From the NCBI RefSeq assembly GCF_016735595.1, contig NZ_JAERRB010000003.1, forward strand, positions 423,401-487,400: a DNA stretch of 64,000 nt, read 5' to 3'. Below the pieces are notes generated by a model. That model did not search any database, was not told the DNA's origin, and worked only from the letters and a program-made list of their open reading frames with translations. Below, piece by piece: positions 13,778 to 22,891 of the stretch (position 1 is its first letter; each line of letters begins with the position of its first letter). This DNA comes from Chryseolinea lacunae (GTDB lineage: Bacteria; Bacteroidota; Bacteroidia; Cytophagales; Cyclobacteriaceae). The position numbers were made by a program, and so were the translations under genes.

Positions 13778-15217
13778 TTATTGACGCAAAAACTTTTCAT
13801 AGAACCACAGCGATTGCTGAAAACTCTCCAGGCTCACGCGTTCGTCTATTCCATGAAAACCGATTGGGTCAATCATTGGACTGAACTTGATAATGTTTGT
13901 TGACACATCGCCGAAAAAGCGAGAGTCTGTGGCGCCAATCATCAGGAATGGTGTGGCTACGGTTTCGGGAAAAGTTTTCTTCACTGTTTCCTGCACATGT
14001 TGATAGCCAAAGCCTTCTTCGGGAGAGGTGGCCGATGCCTCGTTCAGAAACTCAGTTGACATGGTTATGCTCACACGGTCGTCGTTGATTATTTTTTTCA
14101 GTTCGGCAATCACTTTATCGGAGGTGTCGCCCTGCAGCAATCTCAGATTCACGGTGGCCGACACCTTTGTGGGAACAACGTTGTCTTTCATGCCGGCATT
14201 AAATATGGTGGGCACCACGGTTGTTCTCACCACGGCATTTCCGGCGGCACTCTTTTCATAGATGCCAATCACCACACTTTTGAACATCCACATGTTTGCA
14301 AAAATCAGTTTCTCCGGATAGGGCATCTCTGGCCCAACGTGACTCATGAACCCCACGGTGGCCGGCGCGAAGTTTGGCGGAAATGGATGTTGACGGATGT
14401 TCACCACGGCCTTTGCCAAAATGTCGAGCGCTGTTTCTTGTTCTGGCATCGAAGAGTGGCCGCCATTTTTTTCAACGGTCAGCAACAACGACAAGTATCC
14501 TTTTTCGGCAGTGCCGATCAGCGCCACGGGTTTGAGCATGCCCGGCACTTTGTTACGCGTCACAATGCCGCCTTCGTCGAGCACCATTTCGGCCGAGATG
14601 TTTCGTTGCGCCAAAAGTTTGGCAATTGTTTTCGCGCCCGAACCGCCGCGCTCCTCGTCGTGACCCAACGCCAAGATGACTGTGCGCTCCGGTTGAAAAT
14701 TTTCTTTGGTCAACTTCTCGATCGTTTCGAAAATTGAGATCACGTTTATTTTATTGTCCGTCGAACCGCGGCCCCACACACATCCATCTTTCACTTCGCC
14801 GGCAAACGGATCAACCGTCCAGCTGCTCTTCGACGCTTCTTCGATTGGCACAACGTCCTGGTGTGCCAGCATCACAATGGGTTTCAGTTTCTCGTTTTTC
14901 CCTTTCCAGGTATAAAGCAAACTGTAGTTTTTCACGAGCTCGCGTTCAAGATGCGCGTGCGCTGTGGGATAGGTCTTTTGTAAAAATCTTTGGAATCCGA
15001 AAAATTGCGCCGTGTCCAACAACGCCGAGTCGGTGAACGAAATTGTTTTGAAGCGAATGGCTTCCTGAAAATGCTGAATGGCTTCGGGGTCAACGGCCGG
15101 AGCAGGCAAGGCAGCAATGGCGGGCTGGCGAGAGTTGAATGTGAAGGCGTTGAAAAACAGGATGGCCAACAGGATAACCAAGAGAGCCAAAAGAATCAGC
15201 AAACCGCGTTTTATCAT
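13778..15217 (-). CDS. M20 family zinc peptidase (PM20D1/carboxypeptidase-like)
   Basis: A 479-residue metallopeptidase. An N-terminal membrane segment (residues 5-24, KRGLLILLALLVILLAILFF) anchors or exports it. The metal-binding motifs are MLAHQDVVP (His119, catalytic Asp121), GRGSTDNK (bridging Asp154) and GHDEERGGSGA (the general-base Glu pair). VSATVNLRLLQGD belongs to the dimerisation domain. Relatives include carboxypeptidase S and mammalian PM20D1, which act on N-acyl amino acids or dipeptides. It probably works outside the cytoplasm. It lies between two unrelated genes with short gaps, so it is likely a single-gene unit. Confidence 0.9.
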   Translation of the reverse strand: MIKRGLLILLALLVILLAILFFNAFTFNSRQPAIAALPAPAVDPEAIQHFQEAIRFKTISFTDSALLDTAQFFGFQRFLQKTYPTAHAHLERELVKNYSLLYTWKGKNEKLKPIVMLAHQDVVPIEEASKSSWTVDPFAGEVKDGCVWGRGSTDNKINVISIFETIEKLTKENFQPERTVILALGHDEERGGSGAKTIAKLLAQRNISAEMVLDEGGIVTRNKVPGMLKPVALIGTAEKGYLSLLLTVEKNGGHSSMPEQETALDILAKAVVNIRQHPFPPNFAPATVGFMSHVGPEMPYPEKLIFANMWMFKSVVIGIYEKSAAGNAVVRTTVVPTIFNAGMKDNVVPTKVSATVNLRLLQGDTSDKVIAELKKIINDDRVSITMSTEFLNEASATSPEEGFGYQHVQETVKKTFPETVATPFLMIGATDSRFFGDVSTNIIKFSPMIDPIGFHGIDERVSLESFQQSLWFYEKFLRQ

Positions 15218-15274: not shown

Positions 15275-17176
15275 TTAGAACTGCGGCGCCTGTTCCTGGC
15301 CATTAAAATCTCCACGCAACAACCTGTATCGCTTCCGGGCCTCGGCCGCAAAAACACTTCCCGGATATTTCGACAAAAAGTCGCGATAGATCTCCATGGC
15401 CTTGTCTTTGTTTTTCAATTGGCGCTCGTAGATTTCGCCTTGTAAAAAATAGGCATCGTCGGCCAGGATGTCGTCACCATAGTCATCGATAATTTTTTGA
15501 AGGAGGGCCAACGATAAGTCGAACTCTCCGCGCTGCATCCGGATGTTTGCCTCAAGCCAATACACATCGTCGAGAATGGTTTGATTGGAAAACGACACGC
15601 CGCTTGCGGAAGTACCTTGTTTGAGATATTCGATTTTTTTTAAGGCGTCGTTTGTTTTGTTTTGATACAGCAAAAGTTCGACCGAGGCATATTGCTTGAG
15701 CGCTTCACCCGTGCTGTCGACGGAAACATTTTCTTTTATTCGCATGCTCAGGTCCAGGGCGTCGTTCGAAATTTCGCGCGTGGTGGCTTGCTTCAAAATG
15801 TCGAGGTGTTCCTGGGCCAGGCGGAAGTCGCCTTTGTAGTAGGAGAGTTTTGCGTTTCGCAGTTTTGCCTCATAGCCCACAGGATTTTCTTTTTGCGTTT
15901 TTTCAACCTGAGAATAGAGCAACGAGGATTCCCATGGCTCACCCATCAACATATAAATATCACCCAAATCCAATTTTGCTTTCGACTTCAGGTAGAGCGT
16001 GGCTTTTGGATTTGCGATCAGTTTATTGAGAATTTGAACGGCCGAATCTTTTTGGTCGAGATAGTTTGCAAACAACAGCGCTTCACTTTTCGATGCCTCG
16101 AGCGAATTTACGTTGTCGGGATATTGGCGGATAAAGTTTTTATAGTCGGCGATCAATATTTTCACCGAGTCGTTTTTCACCGGGTAGGTATTTTTTACGC
16201 GCGCCTCCCGGGTTCGGATCAGTCCGAGGCGCGCGAGCAAATAATTTTGGGTGCCTTGATATTCGCGGATCAGGTACCGATAAATTTTTAGCGCGGTGTC
16301 ATAGTCTTCGTTGTCGAGCGCCACCCGGGCCACTTCCATACATTTTTCGCCGTCGCGTTTGTAGCGTTTGTCGTAGGCCCGGGCCTGGATGAAAGAGGCG
16401 TAGAAATTTTTCTGTTGCATCGTCACCCAAATGAGCAGGTCGGCATAAACTTCAACGTCGGGATATTGCTGCACTTTGTCGTATAAAAGTCGTTCGAGAC
16501 TTTCAAGTTCTTCGGGCCGGGTCAGCAACGCCTGCATCACATTTTTCACATATTGAATGTTGCCCGAATTTTGCGTCACATAGTTCAGGTATTCCTGCAC
16601 CATTTTGTCCTGGCTTCCTTTGATGCGATAGAGCATGGCAAGCTCCAGGCAAAAGAGCGACGGATTTCCCAACGATGCCCGGCTCTCCGTCAAAGCCACA
16701 ATGCCGTAGTCGGCCAGCGAGTGCGACATAAAGTAATCCGACATCATTTTGATGCGTTGAACATTCGCTTTGTTCTCCGAAATAAGCTCCTTGAAATATT
16801 TGTCGGCCTTGGGCAGATCGCCGGCGCGCACATAGGTTAATCCCACATCCAGTTTATACTGCAAATTGAGCGGATCGCGCTTCGTTACTTTTTTTAAAAA
16901 ATTTTGCGCCTCTTCATAATTGCCCAAATCCAGCAGCACATTGATATAGCTATTATAAATAAACGGCGTGTTCACATCGGCTTTGGCCAGGTCGCGATAA
17001 AGCTCGAGCGCCTTTTTTTTATCGCCCTTCAATAAGTATTCGTTGGCCAGCTGGATGTCGTCCTGGTTTTGAGCGAACGCCGAAACCGAGGCAAAAAGGA
17101 GAAAAAGAGTTATCCGGATAAAGTGGGTCTTTATTAAAATAATATAGTTTATATATATATAGGTATTATTAACCAT
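15275..17176 (-). CDS. Secreted tetratricopeptide repeat protein
   Basis: A 633-residue protein with a signal peptide (hydrophobic TLFLLFASVSAFAQ) and many TPR units from start to end. Examples are AQNQDDIQLANEYLLKGDKKKALELY, DVGLTYVRAGDLPKADKYFK and, near the C terminus, DDAYFLQGEIYERQLKNKDKAMEIYRDFLSKYPGSVFAAEARKRYR. The C-terminal copies resemble the YbgF/BamD type. Expected in the periplasm as a scaffold for envelope or secretion complexes; partners are unknown. The start is at the ATG 17174-17176; the frame can also begin at a TTG two codons earlier. Its promoter region overlaps the candidate replication origin. Confidence 0.85.
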   Translation of the reverse strand: MVNNTYIYINYIILIKTHFIRITLFLLFASVSAFAQNQDDIQLANEYLLKGDKKKALELYRDLAKADVNTPFIYNSYINVLLDLGNYEEAQNFLKKVTKRDPLNLQYKLDVGLTYVRAGDLPKADKYFKELISENKANVQRIKMMSDYFMSHSLADYGIVALTESRASLGNPSLFCLELAMLYRIKGSQDKMVQEYLNYVTQNSGNIQYVKNVMQALLTRPEELESLERLLYDKVQQYPDVEVYADLLIWVTMQQKNFYASFIQARAYDKRYKRDGEKCMEVARVALDNEDYDTALKIYRYLIREYQGTQNYLLARLGLIRTREARVKNTYPVKNDSVKILIADYKNFIRQYPDNVNSLEASKSEALLFANYLDQKDSAVQILNKLIANPKATLYLKSKAKLDLGDIYMLMGEPWESSLLYSQVEKTQKENPVGYEAKLRNAKLSYYKGDFRLAQEHLDILKQATTREISNDALDLSMRIKENVSVDSTGEALKQYASVELLLYQNKTNDALKKIEYLKQGTSASGVSFSNQTILDDVYWLEANIRMQRGEFDLSLALLQKIIDDYGDDILADDAYFLQGEIYERQLKNKDKAMEIYRDFLSKYPGSVFAAEARKRYRLLRGDFNGQEQAPQF

Positions 17177-17450
17177 GTTCAAATGTGTATAACCTTCTTC
17201 GGATTTTGAATGTGGAATTTATGTAGAAATTAGATACTTACTAATCTTTTCTTTATCAATGGTTTAGAGTCTTGTCAACAATGTTGTGGGGTGTGTATAG
17301 AAACGTTGTGGAGTACTTGTATTGTATGTAGTGTGGGTAAGTCCGATTCTATGCACAGGTTCGTTTGGGCTTTTCAGGAATGTTGGATTTAAGACGATTT
17401 TGTAGACAAGTTCGGTCATGAATCCACAAGTTGTTAGTAGGTTATCAACA
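17177..17450. other. Candidate chromosomal replication origin (DnaA-box cluster)
   Basis: A 257-bp non-coding gap plus the last codons of the next gene, dense in 9-mers close to the DnaA box TTATCCACA. One-mismatch boxes: TGTGTATAA (17184-17192), TGTGGGTAA (17332-17340), TTATCAACA (17442-17450). Two-mismatch boxes: TTGTCAACA (17272), TGTGTATAG (17292), TGTGGAGTA (17307), TGTAGACAA (17401), GAATCCACA (17420). An A/T-rich run at 17138-17172 abuts the cluster and could serve as an unwinding element. mnmG and three parS-like sites lie within 5 kb. No exact box is present, so this is a candidate only. Confidence 0.5.
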
Positions 17451-19179
17451 ATGGTCCCAGCTCCCAATTTGCCTTAAGGTTGAAGGAAGGAAGGTTCTTT
17501 TCGTTCTTGTAGAAGGTGATGGGTTCCGGTTCTTCGTGAAGTTCGTAGTTGCCTGGGTTCCATAGACCGTCGCCGTTTTTGTCGATAATCAGTCTGAGCA
17601 TGTACTCACCCGGTTCCACGTCTTCGAAGGTGATCTTTTTGTTATCGCGCTTTTTGTCTACCACTTTGAAGTCACGGTTCAGGAGCTCCACAACATAGTG
17701 CTCGGCTTTTGTATTTACCTGTACTAGTATGACTCCGGTTTCTTCGAGAGTGGAAGGTCTAACGGTGGTTTGTAAACTTTTCGAGCTATCGAGCTCAGCA
17801 CTGATGAATGCACCTTTGCCGGTCACGAATTGGTAGTCGACGAGTTTGGGAGGTGCAGGTTTTTTCTGTCCGCTGCCGGGTTGTTTCACGGCTGTAGCTG
17901 GTGCTGGTGGTTGTGTTTGAAGTTTGGGCTGGTCTGCTTTTTTAGGTAGATCTTTTGGCGGCTCGGGTTTCTTGAGAAGCACTTTGTCGAAGGTCTTTTC
18001 TATAGTCACGATGTTGTGGAGACTGTCTATGTGGACATCTTCCGGTTTGATTGGGACTATTTTTGCGGAGTCGATCTGGTAGAAGATGCTGTCGAAGTTG
18101 ATTACGGCCAAGGGTTTGTTGAAGCCAATTGTTCCATGTAGAATTCCTTTTGTGCCAATAACCCTCATTGTCGGCGCTGTTGATTTGAAAGCCTCGGGCT
18201 TAGCGTCACGTTTGCCGAACTTGATATAAAGCGTTGTGTCTATTTTGTGATTCACGCTGTCGTAGGCTTCAAGGCGGACGGCGAGGCTGTCTTTGTCTTC
18301 GATGGTGTTAAAGACTTTGATGTTGGCCAGGTCGTCGCCGAATGAGGAAAGTAGGATCTCGTCTTCCTGTGGAGTCAGTTTGAAGCTCGCCAGGTTTTTG
18401 GAAGTCTTGATGTTGAAGTAAGTATTGTAAGGTCTGTAGTTCGTTAACTTCAGCGGGCGGTTGTCAAGACGCACTAAAGGTATGTTCACCATGCTGGCGT
18501 TCGAGTCTAGCCTGATTTTGTCTTTTAAGAACCCGTAAGACTCTGATTTACTGTCGATTACAAGGTTTTTGTTCTTATCTTCGATGGCATACACATAATA
18601 TTCGCCTGGCTTCAGGTTTTCAAGTTTATAGATTCCCTTCTCGCTTGTCTTTGTCAGGTACGAGGGTTTGTGTTTGAAGATATTGAAGGTGTCTGCTTCG
18701 TATAGTGCGACCGTTGCCTCTTTGCTTTCCTTTCCCCTTAGTGGATCCGAGATATATCCTTCAATGGAAAGTGAATCGATGTAGTTGCCCGTGCTGAAGG
18801 CGAGCTTCAGATTTTTGGCTGGATTCTTTTCTGTGATATCCTGAACACCGTCGCGAAAGTTTATGGAATAGGTGGTGCTGTCTTTGAGGTCTTCTTTGAA
18901 CGTGAGAACGAGGCGATCTTTTTTCGCCGTGGCTTCAAAGTCTTTTCCTACCGATGGTATGATGAGGATCTGGTCTTTGGGGTTGTTGGTGATGATGGCC
19001 TCGTTGAAGTTGAGTTCAACAGTTTTGCCTTTATAGTTTAAGGCTTCGTGTTTGGGAAGTGTGCTGATGAGAATTGGTGGGATGGTATCTTTTGGTCCAC
19101 CGGTGGGTGCAGTCTGTCGGGCGCATGCCAGGAAGAAGAGCGGATAGATGAGCCAGTGCAGGTGCTGTTGTATCTTCAT
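17434..19179 (-). CDS. Ig-like (Big_5 type) lipoprotein
   Basis: A 581-residue lipoprotein. The signal ends in the lipobox FFLAC, giving a lipidated cysteine around residue 19, followed by the typical ARQTAPTGGPKDTIPP stretch. An Ig-like domain of the Big_5 type comes next (ETV-ELNFNEAIITNN, NPKDQILIIPSVGKDFEATAKKDR). A carboxypeptidase-regulatory-like beta domain follows (YKLENLKPGEYYVYAIEDKNKN), and a Pro/Lys/Gln-rich linker (residues about 415-455) leads to a second similar domain (DVEPGEYMLRLIIDKNGDG). This family is frequent in Bacteroidota; its role is not known. The start ATG overlaps the methyltransferase stop (ATGA), so it belongs to the mnmG operon. Confidence 0.85.
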   Translation of the reverse strand: MKIQQHLHWLIYPLFFLACARQTAPTGGPKDTIPPILISTLPKHEALNYKGKTVELNFNEAIITNNPKDQILIIPSVGKDFEATAKKDRLVLTFKEDLKDSTTYSINFRDGVQDITEKNPAKNLKLAFSTGNYIDSLSIEGYISDPLRGKESKEATVALYEADTFNIFKHKPSYLTKTSEKGIYKLENLKPGEYYVYAIEDKNKNLVIDSKSESYGFLKDKIRLDSNASMVNIPLVRLDNRPLKLTNYRPYNTYFNIKTSKNLASFKLTPQEDEILLSSFGDDLANIKVFNTIEDKDSLAVRLEAYDSVNHKIDTTLYIKFGKRDAKPEAFKSTAPTMRVIGTKGILHGTIGFNKPLAVINFDSIFYQIDSAKIVPIKPEDVHIDSLHNIVTIEKTFDKVLLKKPEPPKDLPKKADQPKLQTQPPAPATAVKQPGSGQKKPAPPKLVDYQFVTGKGAFISAELDSSKSLQTTVRPSTLEETGVILVQVNTKAEHYVVELLNRDFKVVDKKRDNKKITFEDVEPGEYMLRLIIDKNGDGLWNPGNYELHEEPEPITFYKNEKNLPSFNLKANWELGPLLITY

Positions 19180-20063
19180 TTTCTGATGATATAGATTAAG
19201 CTTGAGTAGTCGTTTGTTTTTGCTGCCTTGCTGTTTGACTTGATGCCATTCCATACGGCTTTCAACATGCCACCGAGACCCGATGTTCCGGTCTTATATT
19301 TCTCACTGAGCAGACTGATATAGAACGCGTCCAATTTCATGGGTACGATGTTCTTTATCTTCAGGCCGTTGTTCGTCATGAGCAAATCCATTGTCTTCCT
19401 CGAGAAATGCCAAAGGTGTCGAGGCACGTCATAGCCCGCCCAGTGTGATTGATAATGTTTTCCATCCCAGCACTCGTAGTTAGGCACGGCAATGAGCAAC
19501 GTGCCATCGTCGTTGAGTTGTTGTTTTAGCGATTGGATGCATTCATTCAAGTCGTCGATATGTTCAAGTACGTGCCAGAGCGTGATCACATCAAATTTCT
19601 TGCCTGTTAGTTCGGGGAGCGCTGTGGCAATCTTCTCCTGGGTAGATTGCTCGGCTTGGCTTCGGGCAAGCGCAGAAGGTTCAACACCTGCAACTGCCCA
19701 TTGTTGTTCTTTTGCGGCTTTCAGGAAATCACCGGTGCCACAGCCGTAATCCAGCAGTTGCCTTCCTTTTCCCAAAGAGTGGTTGGTGATCAGTTTCACC
19801 TTCCATTTCAATGTGAAAGTTCTGGCAAGGATATAGACCGAATCAATCAGCCCCTTGGCCTTGTTCGAGTGTGATATGTATGTGTCGGAGAGATAGTAGT
19901 CTCCTAAGCGCTCTGGATCAGGAACTGGATTGGTGAACGTGAAGCTGCAGGTCTTGCAGGTAACGAGTTGAAATGTTTCATGTGAAACAGTGTAGTCTTT
20001 GCAGTTCAGAAACGGAGTGAAGACGGACGAATGGCAAACGGGGCAGCTTTTCAGTTCTTTCAT
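19176..20063 (-). CDS. Class I SAM-dependent methyltransferase with N-terminal zinc-binding segment
   Basis: A 295-residue protein. The N terminus carries paired cysteines (CPVCHSS and TCKTCSFTF) that suggest a zinc knuckle. A Rossmann methyltransferase domain follows, with motif I at QLLDYGCGTGDFLKAAKE, then VAGVEPS and VITLWHVLEHIDDL (Methyltransf_23 type). The substrate is unknown; relatives act on sugars, quinones or tRNA. It is not RsmG, the usual methyltransferase beside mnmG. It overlaps mnmG by 4 nt on one side and the lipoprotein on the other, so the three form a tightly coupled operon. A parS-like 16-mer (19974-19989) lies within its coding sequence. Confidence 0.87.
   Translation of the reverse strand: MKELKSCPVCHSSVFTPFLNCKDYTVSHETFQLVTCKTCSFTFTNPVPDPERLGDYYLSDTYISHSNKAKGLIDSVYILARTFTLKWKVKLITNHSLGKGRQLLDYGCGTGDFLKAAKEQQWAVAGVEPSALARSQAEQSTQEKIATALPELTGKKFDVITLWHVLEHIDDLNECIQSLKQQLNDDGTLLIAVPNYECWDGKHYQSHWAGYDVPRHLWHFSRKTMDLLMTNNGLKIKNIVPMKLDAFYISLLSEKYKTGTSGLGGMLKAVWNGIKSNSKAAKTNDYSSLIYIIRK
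19974..19989. promoter_or_regulatory. parS-like site inside the methyltransferase gene
   Basis: TGTTTCATGTGAAACA differs from the parS consensus TGTTTCACGTGAAACA at one position. It lies 2 kb from the intergenic parS cluster, within the range over which bacterial parS sites are usually grouped. Confidence 0.5.
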
Positions 20064-21922
20064 TTTCCCATATATATAGTGAGGACCGATACGTCTGCCG
20101 GGGAAACGCCGCTGATGCGCGATGCTTGTCCCACAGTTTCGGGTTTGATACGCTTCAGTTTTTCGCGTGCTTCAGAAGAGAGGGCTTTCACACGGTCATA
20201 GTCAAAGTCCGTTTTGATTCGGTAGTTCTCTAGGTTACCCAGTTTCTGGACCAGTTGCTCCTCCCTTTCGATATAGCTGTCGTATTTAATGTTGATCTCA
20301 GCCTGCTCCTGAACTTCAGTTGCGTACTTGTTCAAAAGTGTTTCGAGACTGCTGTTGATGCGTTTAAGATCTGTGATTCCTATCTGGGGGCGTTTCAGCA
20401 AATGACCTGCAGCCACTTTCTCTTTCACTGCTGAGGTCTGGAGGGTTTCGAGGCCTTCGTTTATGTCTGCTGGTTCCACTTTTAACTTATTCAGTTCCTT
20501 TGTGAGAAGTTCAACGGCTTCCTTCTTTGCCACAACTTTTTCGAATCGATCCTGCCCTGCCAGACCAATGGCATGGCCCAGTTCGGTGAGACGGATGTCG
20601 GCGTTGTCCTGTCTGAGAAGAATCCGGTATTCTGCCCGTGAGGTGAACATCCTGTAGGGTTCTTGCGTGCCCTTGCTAACAAGGTCGTCAATCAACACAC
20701 CGATGTAGGCGTCTGATCTCTTTAGAATGAAGGGATCTTTTCCATGCACCTTTTGATGGGCGTTTATTCCGGCCATCAAGCCCTGGCAAGCCGCTTCTTC
20801 ATAGCCTGTGGTCCCGTTGATCTGTCCGGCGAAGTAGAGATTCTGTACAAGGTGGGTTTCGAGGCTAAGACCCAGCTGTGTTGGGGGGAAGAAGTCGTAT
20901 TCAATGGCATAGCCTGGTCTGAACATCTTCACGTTCTCGAATCCTTCTATTTTGGTCAGGGCTTTGTATTGAACGTCTTCAGGCAGTGAGGTAGAGAAAC
21001 CATTCACATAGATCTCCACAGTATTCCACCCTTCGGGCTCCACAAAGATCTGGTGACGGTCTCTTTCGGCGAAACGATTGATTTTGTCTTCGATAGACGG
21101 GCAATAGCGGGGACCAAGCCCTTTGATGCGGCCCTGGAACATGGGAGACTTCTCGAATCCCTTCTGAAGCTCTTTGTGGACCGTGTCGTTGGTGTAGGTG
21201 ATCCAGCAGCTTACTTGTTTGGTGAGGGGCTTTGTGTCGGTGTATGAGAACTTGCCTGGATCTTCATCGCCAGGCTGTTCTTCCATTTTCGCATAGTTGA
21301 GGCTTCGACCATCTACCCTAGGGGGCGTGCCGGTCTTCATACGTCCGGATTCAAAGCCGAGACTAACCAATTGTTCAGTGAGTCCGGTAGCGGCTTTCTC
21401 TGCTGTTCGGCCTCCTCCAAAGTTTTTCTCCCCGATATGGATCTTTCCGTTCAGGAATGTGCCATTGGTTAGCACCACAGACTTCCCTCTTATCTCAAGG
21501 CCTAGGCTTGTCCTTACTCCTACGGCTCGGCCGTCCTCCACGAGGATCTCTTTCACCATCTCCTGCCAGAAGTCCAGATTAGGTGTTTGCTCCAAGACCA
21601 GTCGCCATTCTTCCGAGAATTTCATACGGTCGTTCTGTGTTCGGGGGCTCCACATGGCAGGACCCTTTGAGCGATTCAACATTCTGAATTGAATCATCGA
21701 TTTGTCGGCCACAATACCCGACATGCCACCTAAGGCATCAATCTCGCGAACAATCTGGCCCTTGGCAACGCCACCCATCGCGGGGTTGCACGACATCTGG
21801 GCAATGGTATTCATATTCATGGTCACCATGAGCACTTTCGAACCCATGGTTGCCGCAGCGGCAGCAGCCTCGCAGCCAGCGTGCCCCGCCCCCACCACAA
21901 TCACATCATATTCTGGAAACAT
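20060..21922 (-). CDS. mnmG: tRNA uridine-5-carboxymethylaminomethyl(34) synthesis enzyme MnmG
   Basis: A 620-residue FAD protein that, with MnmE, modifies the wobble uridine of several tRNAs. Visible signatures are the FAD loop DVIVVGAGHAGCEAAAAAATMG (residues 5-26), SCNPAMGGVAKGQIVREIDALGG, RTQNDRM, MKTGTPPRVDGRS, LYFAGQINGTTGYEEAACQGL, TSRAEYRILLRQDNAD, and the C-terminal QASRISGVSPADVSVL. Length and motif order match the family. It is the first gene of a three-gene overlapping operon. mnmG (gidA) often lies near oriC, which fits the parS cluster in its upstream gap and the DnaA-box cluster about 3 kb beyond its 3' end. Confidence 0.97.
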   Translation of the reverse strand: MFPEYDVIVVGAGHAGCEAAAAAATMGSKVLMVTMNMNTIAQMSCNPAMGGVAKGQIVREIDALGGMSGIVADKSMIQFRMLNRSKGPAMWSPRTQNDRMKFSEEWRLVLEQTPNLDFWQEMVKEILVEDGRAVGVRTSLGLEIRGKSVVLTNGTFLNGKIHIGEKNFGGGRTAEKAATGLTEQLVSLGFESGRMKTGTPPRVDGRSLNYAKMEEQPGDEDPGKFSYTDTKPLTKQVSCWITYTNDTVHKELQKGFEKSPMFQGRIKGLGPRYCPSIEDKINRFAERDRHQIFVEPEGWNTVEIYVNGFSTSLPEDVQYKALTKIEGFENVKMFRPGYAIEYDFFPPTQLGLSLETHLVQNLYFAGQINGTTGYEEAACQGLMAGINAHQKVHGKDPFILKRSDAYIGVLIDDLVSKGTQEPYRMFTSRAEYRILLRQDNADIRLTELGHAIGLAGQDRFEKVVAKKEAVELLTKELNKLKVEPADINEGLETLQTSAVKEKVAAGHLLKRPQIGITDLKRINSSLETLLNKYATEVQEQAEINIKYDSYIEREEQLVQKLGNLENYRIKTDFDYDRVKALSSEAREKLKRIKPETVGQASRISGVSPADVSVLTIYMGK

Positions 21923-21947: not shown

Positions 21948-21963
21948 TGTTTCACGTGGAACC
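21948..21963. promoter_or_regulatory. parS site 1
   Basis: TGTTTCACGTGGAACC, a ParB-binding centromere palindrome with core GTTTCACGTGGAAC. It differs from the universal parS sequence only in the last base and the common A/G variant of the right arm. Confidence 0.75.
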
Positions 21964-22002: not shown

Positions 22003-22018
22003 TGTTTCACGTGGAACA
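22003..22018. promoter_or_regulatory. parS site 2
   Basis: TGTTTCACGTGGAACA, the full 16-bp parS motif (tGTTnCACGTGnAACa). Confidence 0.82.
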
Positions 22019-22047: not shown

Positions 22048-22063
22048 GGTTCCACGTGGAACA
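22048..22063. promoter_or_regulatory. parS site 3
   Basis: GGTTCCACGTGGAACA, containing the perfect 14-bp palindrome GTTCCACGTGGAAC. It ends 3 nt before the ybeY stop codon. Confidence 0.75.
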
Positions 22064-22066
22064 TCT

Positions 22067-22486
22067 CTAGCGCAAAGATAGATAAGCGTCCTCTTTTTTG
22101 CGCATCAGTGCTTTCTTCTGGATTCCCTTGTCGGAGTAACCAATGAGGTGCAGCACCCCGTGTATAAGTACACGGTGGAGCTCCTGGTCGAATGTGGTTT
22201 CGAACTTTTCGGAATTCTCTTTCACACGGTCGATGCTAATGAAGATGTCGCCTGCAATGAGGCCGCTTCCCTCGCTTGAATCGAAGGTCACGATGTCGGT
22301 GAAGGTGGTGTGGTTGAGATACTGGATGTTTATCTCACGCAGATACGTGTCGGAGCAGAATATGAAATTCAGCTCATCCAGCTTCTTCTTTTCTTTCAGG
22401 ATTGATGCCTTTAGCCAGGCAGTGGTTTTTCGCGGATGCGGAAGTTTAAATTCTACATCTTCTGTGAAAAAGTGAACGGAGGGCAT
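22067..22486 (-). CDS. ybeY: rRNA maturation RNase YbeY
   Basis: A 139-residue single-strand endoribonuclease used in 16S rRNA 3'-end maturation and ribosome quality control. The core is FDQELHRVLIHGVLHLIGYSDKG. The first two zinc histidines of H-x3-H-x5-H are present, but the third ligand position is Asp instead of His (H-x3-H-x5-D). Upstream, NIQYLNHTTFTDIVTFDSSEG is the usual strand-forming motif. Length matches the family. The start codon lies directly against the stop of the upstream RsbW-like gene, so they are co-transcribed. The gene ends 3 nt from parS site 3. Confidence 0.92.
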   Translation of the reverse strand: MPSVHFFTEDVEFKLPHPRKTTAWLKASILKEKKKLDELNFIFCSDTYLREINIQYLNHTTFTDIVTFDSSEGSGLIAGDIFISIDRVKENSEKFETTFDQELHRVLIHGVLHLIGYSDKGIQKKALMRKKEDAYLSLR

Positions 22487-22891
22487 TTAGGAGTTCATAT
22501 AAAAGCTCAACTCAACAATGCGGCCGTTTTCCCGGAAGTTCACTTCGTCAGAAAGATGTTTCATCAGGAAGATGCCACGGCCGCCAAGTTTCTCCAGGTT
22601 TTCGGGTGCTGTTGGATCGGGAAGGTTTTCGAAGTCAAAGCCAGTGCCCTCGTCCTTGATGATGAACTTCAGCATGCTGTCGTCCAGGAAGAGGCTCAGG
22701 AATACGTTCTTCGATTTGTCGTTCGAGTTGCCATGCTTGATAGCATTGTTTACGGCTTCGGTCACGGCAATCATGATGTTGCCGTATATGTCGTCATCCA
22801 GGTGGAACTTCTCCTTTGCATTGTCAATAAAGCTCTCAATCATTCTAATGTTCTCTCCGATCGACGGAACCTGGATGTTAATGGTGTTCAT
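22487..22891 (-). CDS. RsbW-like ATP-binding (anti-sigma type) serine kinase domain protein
   Basis: A 134-residue stand-alone GHKL ATPase domain. The N box is AVTEAVNNAIKHGNSND (Glu and Asn of the Mg-ATP site), the G1 box is IKDEGTGFDFENLP, and G2 is LGGRGIFLMKHLSDEV. This is the HATPase_c_2 type found in anti-sigma factors RsbW and SpoIIAB. No sigma factor or anti-anti-sigma (STAS) gene is adjacent, so the partner is unknown. It lies 52 nt after the DUF4175 gene and directly abuts ybeY. Confidence 0.88.
   Translation of the reverse strand: MNTINIQVPSIGENIRMIESFIDNAKEKFHLDDDIYGNIMIAVTEAVNNAIKHGNSNDKSKNVFLSLFLDDSMLKFIIKDEGTGFDFENLPDPTAPENLEKLGGRGIFLMKHLSDEVNFRENGRIVELSFYMNS

Follow-up and report, generated by a model that had tools for sequence, protein, structure and literature searches.

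A predicted chromosomal replication origin close to mnmG in Chryseolinea lacunae

The 251-bp gap between two co-directional genes of Chryseolinea lacunae, taken together with both of its edges, is very probably the chromosomal origin of replication (oriC) of this bacterium. It lies in a window of 64,000 nucleotides, the whole stretch of DNA analysed here, which corresponds to C23:423401-487400 in a genome of 7.9 Mb in 29 contigs; positions given without a contig name are those of the window. The gap (17183-17433) separates the genes for a TPR-repeat protein and a Big_5/DUF2141 protein, both on the minus strand, and the predicted origin extends from about 17130 to 17450 and includes the box at 17442-17450 (Table 1). 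A preliminary description of this DNA had proposed a candidate chromosomal origin near mnmG and parS, a proposal that is now supported by GC skew, by the rank of the box array, by conservation and by parS-like sites.

The distance of about 2.6 kb that had been given for mnmG is correct, while the end of the gene that had been placed there is not: mnmG lies on the minus strand, so it is the 3′ end that faces the site. The dnaA gene, which had been described as absent from the neighborhood, is indeed located on a separate contig (C1:667938). Among the matches listed for the methyltransferase-domain protein encoded between mnmG and the Big_5 gene, the nearest named relatives are mostly from Bacteroidetes.

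Table 1. Features of the candidate origin and its surroundings (window coordinates)
Feature	Position	Strand	Remarks
TPR-repeat protein gene	15275-17182	-	left neighbor, conserved partner of gap; true start may be inside the open reading frame
Candidate oriC, whole: A/T-rich edge and DnaA-box array in gap	17130-17450	.	
A/T-rich stretch, proposed DNA unwinding element	17130-17176	.	overlaps predicted N-terminal codons of TPR gene; unwinding role predicted
DnaA box TTATACACA	17184-17192	-	1 mismatch; matrix score 13.6; adjoins A/T stretch
Weak DnaA-box-like site	17211-17219	-	matrix score 4.1
Weak DnaA-box-like site	17222-17230	-	matrix score 4.3
DnaA-box-like TTGTCAACA	17272-17280	+	2 mismatches
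DnaA-box-like CTATACACA	17292-17300	-	2 mismatches
DnaA-box-like TACTCCACA	17307-17315	-	2 mismatches
DnaA box TTACCCACA	17332-17340	-	1 mismatch
DnaA-box-like CTATGCACA	17349-17357	+	2 mismatches; missing from the preliminary description
DnaA-box-like TTGTCTACA	17401-17409	-	2 mismatches
DnaA-box-like GAATCCACA	17420-17428	+	2 mismatches
DnaA box TTATCAACA	17442-17450	+	1 mismatch; inside last codons of Big_5/DUF2141 gene
Big_5/DUF2141 protein gene	17434-19254	-	right neighbor, conserved partner of gap
Methyltransferase-domain protein gene	19176-20063	-	
parS-like palindrome	19975-19988	.	1 mismatch to GTTTCACGTGAAAC
mnmG (gidA)	20060-21922	-	PF01134, E 4.7e-165
parS-like palindrome	21949-21962	.	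1 mismatch
parS-like palindrome	22004-22017	.	1 mismatch
parS-like palindrome GTTCCACGTGGAAC	22049-22062	.	2 mismatches
ybeY	22067-22486	-	
HATPase protein gene	22487-22891	-	

An array of degenerate DnaA boxes adjoins an A/T-rich stretch

Between positions 17177 and 17450 there are three DnaA-box-like 9-mers with one mismatch and six with two. The preliminary description had counted three and five; all eight of its coordinates and mismatch numbers hold, and its total falls short by the two-mismatch site at 17349, which had been overlooked. The cluster exceeds what is expected by chance. Dinucleotide shuffling of the 274 bp, repeated 3,000 times, left on average 0.14 sites per shuffle with no more than one mismatch and 1.23 with two. 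Three sites of the former class were reached in a single shuffle, and a total of nine sites was reached in none.

Degenerate clusters were ranked over 793.5 kb of the 813.6-kb contig C23 and over 20 kb around dnaA. When up to two mismatches are allowed, the candidate tops all segments of the same length on C23 (nine sites, with six in the next best), and when only one is allowed it ties with one other place (three sites each). The candidate also comes out on top on C23 when a weight matrix is applied at any threshold from 2 to 7, and nothing farther than 500 bp from it is its equal. For training, 82 boxes were taken from 12 genomes that do not belong to the genus, where they lie in the homologous gaps; the matrix presupposes the consensus because each of these boxes is within one mismatch of TTATCCACA.

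An exact TTATCCACA does not occur in the candidate region, a weakness that the preliminary description had itself pointed out. Exact boxes are common in origins and do not define them, and they are also absent from four of the 12 homologous gaps outside the genus. The notion that a lack of such boxes is peculiar to this genus was rejected on the basis of these four gaps.

The A/T run reported earlier beside the boxes is real, as 17130-17172 is composed of A and T only, save three G. All six aligned members of the genus have an A/T-rich stretch at this place, and, as far as sequence can tell, the boxes have an A/T-rich element at their side. The TPR reading frame is open through this tract in C. 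lacunae and at loci L120, L121 and L124, with an ATG at the same place, and at L122 and L123 it is broken by stops within the tract, with a later ATG available. For some members of the genus, the proposed unwinding element may double as coding DNA.

As described in the available part of PMC8287927, a BUS consists of a DnaA box, a spacer and DnaA-trios, with at least three 3′-NAN-5′ trios within 16 bp of the box. We looked for DnaA-trios in 18 genomes. Three trio-like triplets are present 11 bp past the box at 17184, but at least three are also present at 454 of 2,215 control boxes on C23, and the triplets are thus compatible with a BUS and provide no evidence for one.

The array is conserved in position and sequence

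A homologous gap with the two flanking genes at its sides is present in 17 of the 20 mnmG loci from relatives that made up our first set, with spacings of about 250-680 bp between the matched parts of the two genes. In every one of these 17 loci, the 400-bp segment richest in boxes with no more than one mismatch overlaps the gap, and in 16 of them the sites within the gap exceed every 400-bp cluster outside, L125 being tied at three. The remaining loci (L128, L129 and L131) have no TPR match and carry clusters of six, seven and five boxes, respectively, just downstream of the Big_5 match.

A further 15 mnmG loci give a more varied picture. Six of them (L210, which has 13, and L212, L214, L215, L217 and L222) have at least five boxes per 400 bp a short distance downstream of the Big_5 match, L220 has five boxes about 0.9 kb away, and L213 and L218 have three boxes. 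In the other six (L211, L216, L219, L221, L223 and L224), clusters of at least three boxes, counting those with up to one mismatch, are absent. The preliminary description had made its proposal depend on conservation in relatives, and by these counts the arrangement of gap and cluster holds generally among the sampled members of the family and for some of those of the order.

The same dependence had been placed on the 9-mers themselves, and within the genus their columns are better conserved than others. Identity across six species of the genus is found in 44 of 90 box columns versus 29 of 168 columns outside boxes, a count that covers ten of the eleven sites, with 17442-17450 outside the tested range. 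When the box sites were slid from −60 to +60, zero offset was the best of 121 positions, although the sites had been taken from the window itself, which gives the unslid position some advantage. Both position and sequence are conserved, though not in all relatives of the order.

At least 50 methyltransferase-related loci were also found, the most similar of those listed having 47% identity, and records nearest this genome may be missing from this collection. For the 38 of 50 that were scanned (L040-L077), the highest number of boxes per 400 bp, allowing one mismatch, is four at L072, three at L076 and one or two at each of the other 36. None of these 38 loci has a match to the Big_5 protein, and for this reason they give no demonstration of the box-filled gap. 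On inspection by eye of other loci, a box-like 9-mer of the A-TGTGGATAA type overlaps the probable TPR start codon at L125, L127, L130, L132 and L133.

GC skew and parS-like sites near the candidate

The cumulative GC-skew minimum of C23 is located at C23:438307 (window position 14907), 2.3 kb from the array, within a broad trough in which near-minimum values are also present at 260 kb and 360 kb. The keto-excess minimum of this contig is at C23:226275. For G034, a closed genome from the same family, a two-arm fit to 21 samples places the origin between 3,676,001 and 3,763,000, with the terminus at a distance of about half the chromosome. In the contiguous stretch 3,666,001-3,832,000 of this genome, the local skew minimum (3,755,253) is 7.3 kb from the gap homologous to the candidate (3,762,581-3,763,014), and dnaA, at 4,622,002, is 0.86 Mb from that gap. 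The candidate on C23, broad as the trough is there, and the homologous gap in G034 thus lie at the skew minimum, and both distances are within the 50 kb that the preliminary description had allowed.

The skew of G001, a closed genome from the same genus, is weak and noisy (41 samples at about 206-kb spacing). Its best fit is 0.5-0.7 Mb from the homologous gap, and its eight best fits span about 1.45-3.1 Mb, a range that includes the gap at 1.99 Mb. The noise is too great for these samples to position the origin of G001, and we take their fit as mildly unfavorable to the candidate.

The consensus for parS is GTTTCACGTGAAAC. Three parS-like palindromes had been noted about 4.5 kb from the boxes, and these are present at 21949, 22004 and 22049, with one more at 19975. 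The argument that they provide for an origin is stronger than the preliminary description knew, because the only three sites in the genome with at most one mismatch (19975, 21949 and 22004) all lie within 4.6 kb of the candidate. It is the position of these sites that counts and not their number, since a reversed-pattern control is about as frequent as the parS pattern: in G000, G001, G034, G018, G040 and G045 the pattern occurs 3, 3, 1, 1, 1 and 1 times and the control 4, 1, 0, 4, 2 and 0 times. In four of the five other genomes (G001, G034, G018 and G045), every parS-like site with at most one mismatch is about 0.2 kb or less from mnmG, and the single site of G040 is away from mnmG. A ParB-family gene is carried on another contig of the C. 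lacunae genome, and the palindromes form a cluster of putative ParB sites near the candidate origin.

DnaA and a proposed mechanism of initiation

The DnaA, ParB and DciA families are all represented in the genome. We propose that DnaA, encoded elsewhere in the genome, would bind an array of some nine to eleven 9-bp boxes, most of them degenerate, oligomerize towards the left edge and melt the A/T-rich stretch beside the box at 17184. The arrangement of the array, followed by this box facing the A/T tract, fits an assembly of DnaA towards 17130-17176 and the melting of this stretch. The helicase would be loaded at the melted stretch, probably helped by a homologue of DciA, a protein described as a helicase operator in the available part of PMC5109545, and forks would leave bidirectionally. 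Binding of ParB to the parS-like sites in the vicinity of mnmG would help to move new origins apart.

The DnaA core GGRDHSTVIHA is intact in the genus. Nine residues of domain IV are common to the six genus members and G021, and six of these nine are present in none of the 19 other aligned genomes, the other three being found in one or two of the 19. The DnaA region with these shared domain IV residues is G000:C1:667482-668423. Main scores for DnaA domain IV are lowest in the genus (95.1-95.9 bits for the six members, among 25 genomes with a match), with 96.5 bits for G021 and 100.6-111.6 bits for the others; G008 gave no match in this domain scoring. The origins of all six genus members contain one- and two-mismatch boxes only, and G021 keeps one exact box.

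Comparison of these sequences raises the rather doubtful possibility that the origin and the domain by which DnaA binds DNA drifted together in the genus and in the related lineage G021. If so, the origin may work with low-affinity boxes, perhaps with a preference for DnaA-ATP, that are read by a remodelled domain IV. Because G021 keeps an exact box and four of the 12 outside gaps are without any, joint drift of DnaA and its boxes remains a lead. In G034 there are also four short matches to DnaA-like ATPases with near-identical scores (C1:1229104, 3176016, 4919576 and 6008405), which we take to be probably transposon-borne helper ATPases.

Alternative explanations

The degeneracy of the boxes would also suit a DnaA-binding site that regulates or titrates the protein near the origin and is not the origin itself, whether it resembled datA or DARS or served as a DnaA-controlled promoter of the TPR gene. 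The box-like 9-mer on the probable TPR start codon in several relatives would likewise suit control of that gene. Such a role is very improbable in our judgment, given that the cluster is the best on the contig, is close to the skew switch and adjoins an A/T tract. Moreover, in those relatives where both flanking genes were found (17), the 400-bp clusters outside the gap hold at most three boxes, and more than two only in L125.

We give hardly any credence to an origin at dnaA or elsewhere in the genome, with the cluster in the gap a coincidence. Some room for it is left by the ranking of degenerate clusters, which covers C23 only besides the 20 kb around dnaA, and by the weak skew in the genus, where the best fit for G001 is off the homologous gap. 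However, within 20 kb around dnaA there are at most two boxes per 400 bp, and thus no box cluster, in any of five genomes, and among the 37 exact boxes of the C. lacunae genome no pair is nearer than 6.9 kb. The skew and the parS-like sites, in addition, agree with the candidate.

Relation to known origins

Placing oriC in the gap between the TPR and Big_5 genes pins down the probable start of replication in a genome for which dnaA would be a misleading guide. It also offers a rule of gene order, namely mnmG, the Big_5 protein, the gap and the TPR protein in succession, by which oriC can be located in draft genomes of the family and of part of the order. Once oriC is located, leading and lagging strands can be assigned, coverage can be used to estimate growth, and a plasmid with a minimal oriC can be put to the test.

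Our literature search, made without the names of this genus and family, returned no oriC paper for either, a result that leaves absence from print unproven. In Flavobacteriaceae, oriC has been predicted beside mnmG by Ori-Finder and is said to agree with GC skew, according to the available parts of reports on Mariniflexile (PMC11278836) and Algorimicrobium (PMC12843772). The available part of the Mariniflexile report also states that the position of dnaA disagreed with the skew, and it includes a legend that labels mnmG as ter, contradicting its own text.

The candidate resembles the canonical oriC of E. coli and B. subtilis, as outlined in the available part of PMC8287927, in that its 9-bp DnaA boxes are clustered, adjoin A/T-rich sequence and are located close to where the skew is lowest. 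Unlike that type, it has no exact TTATCCACA, dnaA is distant, and DnaA-trios are not above control. With the predicted origins of Mariniflexile and Algorimicrobium it shares a place next to mnmG in a member of the Bacteroidota. Since an origin at the side of mnmG and distant from dnaA had already been predicted in related bacteria, we regard the present result as solid and not surprising. As far as the available parts of those two reports go, the earlier origins are tool predictions without anatomy, whereas the gap, its boxes, its flanking genes and their conservation across species are described here.
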